A DNA stretch of 64,000 nucleotides from Bacillota bacterium. GTDB lineage: Bacteria > Bacillota > Clostridia > Peptostreptococcales > Anaerovoracaceae. Of the stretch, positions 38,535-57,219 are shown piece by piece. A program made the translations under genes and the position numbers. The stretch's first letter is position 1. Each line of letters starts with the position of its first letter. The stretch lies in NCBI GenBank assembly GCA_022793795.1, contig JAAWDM010000041.1, positions 1 to 64,000 on the forward strand, read 5' to 3'. The notes beneath the pieces were generated by a model, which saw only the letters and a list, made by a program, of their open reading frames with translations, made no database searches and had not been told where the DNA came from.

Positions 38535-38845
38535 AACAAAATGTATGCACATTATATTCATGGACTTTTTTGCCGTTATGTGAAGCTTTTGTGAAGTGTT
38601 TCGATGTTTTTTTGGATGGAAAGGTTTTTATCGAAAATTTATAGGAGGAAGGGAATTCTTTCCCTTGGGCAAGGATTCCCCGCGCCAGAATCCGGCTGGA
38701 GAATCAACAGGAGAAAGCCGGATTCTGATTGGTAGTCAAAATACCAAAGGAAAAACCACCCAAATGCAGCATAAATATTTAATTTACAGAAATGATATAC
38801 AAAATCAAAAATTGACTTCGATAATTTTTTGAAATAATAGCAGAA
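38535..38845. repeat. Dispersed structured intergenic element, copy B
   Basis: Homologous to 6738-7050; hairpins 38599-38636, 38651-38680, 38686-38727. Confidence 0.75.
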
Positions 38846-38893
38846 ACATCGAAATCATTAAGAGCGGGAGCTATTGTAGGCGCCCCATGCCCC

Positions 38894-38922: not shown

Positions 38923-38961
38923 ACCCTCAGATAAAAGAACGAAATGCAGGAGCGTGTAAAT

Positions 38962-40608
38962 ATGGATGAGATGAATAGAGATGACAGGCGGACAGCCCTC
39001 GCCAATTATGTGACAGGGGCAGTGGGTGCAATCTTGGGAGCAGCGCTGGGAGCATTGCCAACCCTAATTATTGGATTGTTTGGGTTTGTGTCTGGATGGC
39101 TGGGAATTTTGACGGCTTTTGTTTCCATGAAAGGTTATCAACTGTTTCGAGGTCCGAGGAAAAGCGGATATGCATTTGCAGTGATTATTCTATTTTCTGT
39201 TCTCGCCTCGACCACAGCCTCTTTTATTCTGTACATGCTTTATGACATGGTATTGGTGGACAGCTATATGGTCTGGTTCTTTCTTTTGCCTATCGTGTTT
39301 ACCTTTTTTGGCGCAGTTTTTTGCAAAAGAGGGCTGACAGCGTATACCCAGCCTGAACTTTTAAAGCAGGCCATGAAGCGGGCGGCCCAGGACAATGAAA
39401 GGAGACAGCAGGAGGAGGGGCGGATGATACTGTATCCAGCGGAAAAATCCTGGATGCGTCCCCTTCGAGTCAGTATTTTGTTGGGCCTGTTTGTAGCGCT
39501 ATTGGTCATGGTGTCCATGGCAGGAGTAGGAGCTGTTATCAATGAGGATTCCATGGTATGGGTGATGGCCCTGATAGGAAGCAGCCTGGGTGTTATCGCT
39601 ATGGTATTTTGCATGATACCGATCATAGGGTTGCTTCAGGCAAATCTGTGGATGTATGTGCGTACCAAGGATGGGGTTTTGTGGAGAATTCAGTTGGGGC
39701 AGCTAAACCGCATCGACAACTACCGCTTTACCATGAGAACTGGCGCCTTTCGAGCCATTCAGTGGCACTTGCTCTCAGAGGCGGAGCAGGAGATGGCGGA
39801 GGACGCGATTTTCCGTGGGATATCGGATCTTCGCAGCGGCAGGTTGTTTCCGGGCGCCATGGTGAGCCAAGCCGTTGTAGCTGTGAAGGAGCCTTATCTC
39901 ATCAAGGAGACCAAATGGGCGTGGAAACTTTCCTATGAGAGGGCCGATGGAAAGCGAAAAAGATTAAAGATTGCCAAGGCCTATCCGGATTTAGCGCCGC
40001 TTCCGCGGCTAAAGCCTGTCACAGAGCCAGTTCCTTATCGAGTTAGAGCTTGTATCATTCCCTTGGTAATGGTAGGGATTTTTACAGTGACGGGCGGCGC
40101 TTTTGGCTACTGGATGGAAGGCGGATTTACGGAAAGCTGGCAGGAAAGAGCGGGGGACTCTATAGAACCTGAAAGGAGCAGCCGCTATGTTCAGGACGCT
40201 ATCTATTATAAAATGGATGCGGATTTTATTGCAGAGGGAAACCATGTCTATTTTGACGAAAAAGAGAGGGTGGAATTTACTGTAGAGGTAGCCCATGAGC
40301 AGAAGGAAGAGGATGCCTTAGATTTACTTTTAGAGCCTATCGGTGAGGCCAGGTTTGATAAGGATTTTGACCATTTTCGATTTGCTTGCGTAGAGGAAGA
40401 TTTGGGAGAACTTGAGGCTGCCAATGGGCAGATCTATGGATATAACATTGTATCCATATTCTATAAGGATGGACGCAGGTTACATACCGGCGTGGCCCTG
40501 ACAGAAGAAGGGGATTTACTTTTAGTCGCTGCCAAGCAGCATAGAGAAGGCAATGAGGACGAGGTTGTGGGCAAAATACGATACATTATTGGGAGCATGA
40601 GTCGGTAA
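38962..40608 (+). CDS. Multi-TM hypothetical protein
   Basis: Several TM segments, no motif recognised; aggag RBS before ATG at 38962. Confidence 0.6.
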   Translation: MDEMNRDDRRTALANYVTGAVGAILGAALGALPTLIIGLFGFVSGWLGILTAFVSMKGYQLFRGPRKSGYAFAVIILFSVLASTTASFILYMLYDMVLVDSYMVWFFLLPIVFTFFGAVFCKRGLTAYTQPELLKQAMKRAAQDNERRQQEEGRMILYPAEKSWMRPLRVSILLGLFVALLVMVSMAGVGAVINEDSMVWVMALIGSSLGVIAMVFCMIPIIGLLQANLWMYVRTKDGVLWRIQLGQLNRIDNYRFTMRTGAFRAIQWHLLSEAEQEMAEDAIFRGISDLRSGRLFPGAMVSQAVVAVKEPYLIKETKWAWKLSYERADGKRKRLKIAKAYPDLAPLPRLKPVTEPVPYRVRACIIPLVMVGIFTVTGGAFGYWMEGGFTESWQERAGDSIEPERSSRYVQDAIYYKMDADFIAEGNHVYFDEKERVEFTVEVAHEQKEEDALDLLLEPIGEARFDKDFDHFRFACVEEDLGELEAANGQIYGYNIVSIFYKDGRRLHTGVALTEEGDLLLVAAKQHREGNEDEVVGKIRYIIGSMSR

Positions 40609-57107: not shown

Positions 57108-57219
57108 AAGGCCCAGTGCGACTGACGGAGAAATGTGGAGCACCACGGAGGAGCAACGGGTTATATGAAGTCGACCGTCTGGGCAGTTCTATTTTTAAGG
57201 GATAGAACTGCCCTTTTTG
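57108..57219 (+). ncRNA. ZTP (pfl) riboswitch with terminator
   Basis: GCCCAGTGCGACTGACGGAG...TGTGGAGCACCACGGAGGAGCAACGGG...CGACCGTCTGGGCA; terminator GGGCAGTTCTAT...ATAGAACTGCCCTTTTT overlaps the aptamer 3' end. Confidence 0.88.

Follow-up and report, generated by a model that had tools for sequence, protein, structure and literature searches.

Two repeats in the window (the whole 64,000-nucleotide stretch of DNA analyzed here) belong to a set of dispersed, paired-palindrome DNA elements that point to an undescribed DNA-looping system. The source genome carries many intergenic copies with conserved ends, a drifting spacer and helically phased sites; the architecture recurs, with other palindromes, in four congeneric genomes, and sites are conserved in place between two of these species. 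From these observations we infer a protein, a loop and a function: the elements are probably paired (or pairs of paired) 35-38 bp two-fold symmetric sites on double-stranded DNA for a putative bridging protein, which would close the DNA between them into a short loop.

Paired palindromes in the window and the source genome

Copy A extends from ~6742 to 7058 and copy B from 38535 to 38853. The initial annotation ended copy B at 38845, leaving unlisted a second palindrome (38817-38853) that sets the true end at 38853; the counterpart in copy A (7023-7058) was likewise unlisted. The two copies form the only direct repeat of at least 40 nt within the window (76% over 212 nt), and blastn aligns them with an E value of 7.5e-54 (76% alike across ~300 bp), so that the repeat is far above chance. 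The initial annotation was right that they are not a recent duplicate.

Copy B, on the forward strand, comprises a left arm (38544-38599) with the direct repeats TATGCA-N5-TATTCA and TTATGTGAAG...GTGAAG, conserved in 16 family-1 copies; a first palindrome, P1 (38600-38635; TTCGAT-N24-ATCGAA), which is stem I of the initial annotation; a variable spacer (38636-38767; 36% mean pairwise identity) that holds stem II (38651-38680) and stem III (38686-38727); a right arm (38768-38816; AGCATAAATATT...ATATACA...GACT; 65% mean pairwise identity); and a second palindrome, P2 (38817-38853; TTCGAT-N25-ATCGAA), 217 bp start-to-start from P1. In copy A, on the same strand, the left arm spans 6751-6806, P1 6807-6841 and the right arm 6974-7022. 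Its variable spacer (6842-6973) holds stem II (6857-6886) and stem III (6892-6933), and P2 (7023-7058), with one change in its right arm (ATAGAA), lies 216 bp start-to-start from P1. Copy A follows a tyrosyl-tRNA synthetase gene and a terminator-like hairpin, and is itself followed by a glycine riboswitch (7180-7256), a glycine transporter gene (7420-8130) and an AzlC gene (8138-8932). Adjoining copy B, positions 38944-40608 encode a 554 aa protein without a Pfam match, for which a scan of genome contigs returned a single relative (31% identity). Elsewhere in the window lies a ZMP/ZTP riboswitch (57108-57191; Rfam RF01750, 55 bits).

Used as a query against the assembly that holds the window (G000; 2.48 Mb, 58 contigs), copy B gave 17 matches at some 14 places. 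Family 1 comprises 17 intergenic copies, A and B included, one of which (C32b) is atypical; family 2, with about 12 copies, shares the same palindrome, giving a total of ~29 chromosomal elements. A full family-1 element runs from a left arm with direct repeats through P1 (35-36 bp, TTCGAT...ATCGAA), a variable middle and a right arm to P2, its end palindromes measuring 35-37 bp, and a family-2 element has two palindromes ~50 bp apart at each end. The pattern TTCGAT-N22-25-ATCGAA occurs at 61 exact sites in the genome, many of them belonging to family 2, against 0 for the reversed pattern; the window alone has 3 sites against 0.02 expected. Mean pairwise identity across 16 family-1 copies is highest in the palindromes (P1, 0.79; P2, 0.74), followed by the left arm (0.71) and the right arm (0.65), and falls to 0.36 in the middle; outside the element it is 0.25 on the left and 0.29 on the right. 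The middle is essentially unalignable, and apart from A and B it is well matched between few copies. Homology outside the palindromes, in the left and right arms, suggests that the G000 copies arose by copying from a common ancestor.

The elements are intergenic, often a short way past a stop codon. Their flanking genes are diverse housekeeping genes, and since these are mutually unrelated we rejected a regulon. Like REP/BIME elements, the palindromes are arranged in pairs, interspersed and intergenic. One contig carries a left half-element (C7:5256) and a solo palindrome (C7:32804) 27.5 kb apart. An origin in a phage, plasmid or virus was dropped, as there was no phage, plasmid or viral-contig match.

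Helical phasing and the sister species

The distance between the two sites varies in steps. From start to start, P1 and P2 of family 1 are 186, 195, 206 (four times), 207 (three times), 216 (three times), 217, 218, 227, 228 or 230 bp apart, and the inner distances of family 2 are 135, 136, 146 (twice), 155, 156 (three times), 167 and 168 bp. Phasing at 10.5 bp gives R=0.84 in family 1 and R=0.96 in family 2, in statistics that treat as independent copies that are not so in G000; with no prior assumed, both families fit best to a period of 10.5-10.75 bp. This matches the helical repeat of B-DNA and implies that the two palindromes must occupy a set side of the duplex. Spacing is thus limited modulo the helical repeat, as in looping operator pairs, which points to double-stranded DNA. 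Family 1 sits off whole turns (about 19.7 rather than 20), and its geometry therefore differs.

The comparison set consisted of five species of one genus, G000 and the congeneric G001-G004. All four of the latter carry the paired-palindrome architecture, with types GGACGCC, TGACGCAA, ATACCGG and GTACTCC. At the metS-tatD junction, the gap separating the matching portions of the genes is only ~91 bp in G002 and G003 and long in G000, G001 and G004; in G001 and G004 it holds paired 37 bp palindromes, GGACGCCA...TGGCGTCC, unlike the TTCGAT type in sequence. The arm pattern GGACGCC...GGCGTCC occurs 15 times in G001, 7 times in G004 and 0 times in the other three, usually paired, and G004 also has a TGACGCAA palindrome pair. 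When paired 34-39 bp palindromes were sought without bias, ATACCGG and GTACTCC pairs emerged in G002 and none in shuffled controls; a degenerate ATACCGG/GTACTCC pattern matched 36 times in G002 and 11 times in G003, compared with 4 control matches. Across all sister types, 28 pooled centre-to-centre spacings, with orthologues counted once, gave R=0.88 at 10.5 bp. In turns of 10.5 bp they fall at 6.95, 10.0, 11.05, 15.8-16.0, 16.9-17.05, 18.0, 18.9-19.05 and 19.8-20.05. Helical phasing therefore recurs with unrelated site sequences, as though a binding system kept its geometry and changed its code, a proposition that is testable.

An alternative hypothesis is that these are non-autonomous, MITE-like elements, in which the palindromes would be transposase sites and the phasing would reflect synapsis of two ends on very short DNA. 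Dispersed intergenic copies confined to one species would fit such elements, as would conserved ends around a variable middle and the arms common to the G000 copies; no near-identical copies exist, however, the best pair being 76% alike, and neither a transposase-bearing copy nor a clear target duplication was seen. No gene lies between the palindromes in any copy examined. Outer inverted repeats (TGCA..CAAAAA/TTTTTG..TGCA) accompany the GGACGCC type, in keeping with mobility, but not the G000 elements. The metS-tatD junction, empty (91 bp) in G002 and G003 and occupied in G000, G001 and G004, would also fit insertion, the empty version being too diverged to define an exact site. Yet between G001 and G004 the first palindrome of the metS-tatD copy and its near flanks are almost unchanged, while the spacer has diverged without a gap at exactly 210 bp and the farther flanks are unalignable; sites thus stay in place between species as their surroundings diverge. 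ATACCGG copies within G002 have their palindromes in common, but not the spacer or flanks. Taken together, sites kept in place for a function fit these two patterns better than transposition debris does, and we regard a MITE-like origin as unlikely. Spacers between ATACCGG palindromes at five loci (L213, L207, L215, L220 and L226) contain apparent intrinsic terminators.

Species-specific palindromes, pairing and unrelated sequences between the palindromes are also features of BIMEs (PMC2817692), raising the question of whether a RAYT (Y1 REP-associated transposase) generated the elements as REP/BIME-type sequences. Y1_Tnp domains are present in G000, G001 and G004, but these genes resemble IS200/IS605 TnpA, without the palindromes beside any of them, while G002 and G003 carry elements without any Y1 hit. 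The sites also have no GTAG foot and are two-fold symmetric and helically phased. With no Y1 gene flanked by cognate palindromes in the five genomes, a RAYT origin was rejected as highly improbable.

Beyond the genus, the TTCGAT palindrome was not above background in 299 other genomes of the same family or in 397 other genomes of the order (a sample overlapping the 299). A search for paired 34-39 bp palindromes of any sequence in 744 kb from other genera and 240 kb from other families yielded one locus only, with near-identical tandem copies. In another genus, locus L196 (G012:C1) carries a 37 bp palindrome, CCCATTTTGC...GCAAAATGGG, in three near-identical copies with spacings of 253 and 233 bp.

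Double-sided base changes between copies A and B

The initial annotation had read three double-sided changes between the copies as compensatory, and direct reading confirmed each of them. Stem III is formed by C6892-T6902 and A6923-G6933 in copy A and by C38686-T38697 and A38716-G38727 in copy B, with perfectly complementary arms in both. Within it, A-U became G-C (A6900-T6925 in copy A, G38694-C38719 in copy B) and U-A became C-G (T6902-A6923 and C38696-G38717, respectively). The outer pair of stem I changed from A-U to U-A (A6806-T6842 and T38599-A38636). By our own rough count, rather than the output of a tool, all 4 changes among the 22 positions of stem III fall in two complementary pairs, with a chance of ~1e-3 when only these two copies are considered and the choice of stem is not corrected for.

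These base changes are real, yet they do not demonstrate RNA structure. The middle of the element is where stems II and III are found, and the compensatory changes were therefore read in its least conserved part. Only A, B and C44b have a perfect stem III, which is broken in most other copies. The inference originally drawn from the double substitutions, selection on RNA structure, found no support in an R-scape-like test of 16 aligned copies, in which substitutions were redistributed at random on a FastTree tree: no covarying pair was detected in stems I-III (every stem pair had E > 700 over all column pairs), nor any excess of pairing over the tree-based null in helices I, II or III (p of 0.14, 0.12 and 0.21), in a comparison whose power is limited by 16 sequences and a poorly alignable middle. 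This outcome is close to the lack of covariation above phylogenetic expectation that the initial annotation had itself named as evidence against its proposal. The strong conservation that it had reported for stem I does hold; its sequence is conserved and its pairs hardly vary, which is what one would expect if a protein bound it as a dyad site.

A structured non-coding or cis-regulatory RNA built on stems I-III, as first proposed, is therefore very unlikely to explain the elements. Apart from the three double-sided changes, it could draw on the negative folding z-scores of A (-3.5) and B (-2.3), but in both copies the two strands fold to about the same degree. Among four further copies, three are unremarkable against shuffles (z of -1.0, -0.2 and -1.0) and the fourth, C10b, reaches -6.0 with a different hairpin. 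Pairing exceeds chance in a control that shuffles letters within columns, a nominally positive result that ignores relatedness. Rfam gave no match at or near the gathering score for the elements, some copies lie beyond a terminator, either orientation to genes occurs, and helical phasing has no RNA explanation.

For the stem III changes alone, an account compatible with paired DNA sites is template switching during replication, which homogenizes both arms of an inverted repeat in a single step and could quite possibly have produced the double-sided changes without selection on pairing. Perfect hairpins that arise and persist through template switching, and that bear seemingly compensatory changes, have been documented (PMC8794818). 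A stem that is perfect in A, B and C44b and degraded in most other copies is what would be expected without lasting selection; three perfect copies, however, cannot separate this process from selected compensation, and no intermediate was seen. The case is a caution that two repeats may differ by seemingly compensatory changes and be mistaken for structured RNA.

A putative bridging protein and known systems

Returning to paired DNA sites as the preferred explanation, we propose that a candidate dimeric protein binds each palindrome through outer half-sites of 7-10 bp, and that two bound dimers could then touch across a loop of 70-230 bp. Because such contact would require the two sites to keep a fixed orientation around the helix, the inter-site distance would be fixed modulo the helical repeat, while the spacer could drift in sequence and vary in length by whole turns. 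Preserved by evolution at dozens of sites, helical phasing would be a direct, sequence-only signature of DNA looping. Any effect of the elements on expression or chromosome structure is putative; as the sites are intergenic and often closely follow a stop codon, a likelier role than control of a single regulon would be to shape the chromosome locally or to insulate neighboring transcription units. Since each lineage has its own palindrome sequence, the specificity of the protein must change fast and many sites along with it. We therefore tentatively suggest, with less confidence than we place in paired binding sites as such, a genus-wide looping or insulator system in which the specificity of the bridging protein turns over between species and most sites in a genome are rewritten together.

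One lead to the cognate binder is a gene family with PD-(D/E)XK-like motifs (SKSE, PDF, WEH.G), which is multi-copy in all five species and resembles the end of the PADLOC models PDC-S68. One member per species (5/5) has at its 3' end a paired-palindrome element of the lineage's own type (L040:605-1453, L126:1771-2481 on the reverse strand, L239, L235 and L237). The element-adjoining genes of G001-G004 represent one orthologous locus, interrupted in G001, and that of G000 is a paralogue, so that only two cases are independent and the link may be due to chance. At L261 (G002:C124, around 61285), five imperfect GTACTCC-type palindromes surround one PD-(D/E)XK-like gene, with start spacings of 95, 84 and 116 bp (near 9, 8 and 11 helical turns).

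Among known systems, short Tn5/IS50 transposons reportedly need helically phased ends, with a spacing dependence that is periodic near 10.5 bp. The elements described here share that periodicity on short DNA; unlike Tn5/IS50, their sites are internal dyads, not simple terminal repeats, and no transposase was identified. Bacterial MITEs are likewise short, multi-copy, intergenic and non-coding, with conserved ends (PMC10969869), but the present elements have no demonstrated target duplication, parent element or recent copies, and orthologous copies keep their sites in place. REP/BIME-1 elements resemble them as dispersed intergenic palindrome pairs with lineage-specific sequences and unrelated sequence between, and have suggested roles in chromosome organization and termination (PMC2817692). 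In contrast, the sites here are 35-38 bp long, two-fold symmetric and without a GTAG foot, their spacing runs in whole helical turns over 70-230 bp, and no RAYT gene adjoins them. A further parallel is offered by looping operator pairs such as the lac operators bridged by LacR, two dyad sites whose effect depends on the helical phasing of their spacing (PMC1762422). LacR loops serve one operon, whereas the elements described here number some 20-30 copies beside unrelated genes and carry a site sequence that varies with the species.
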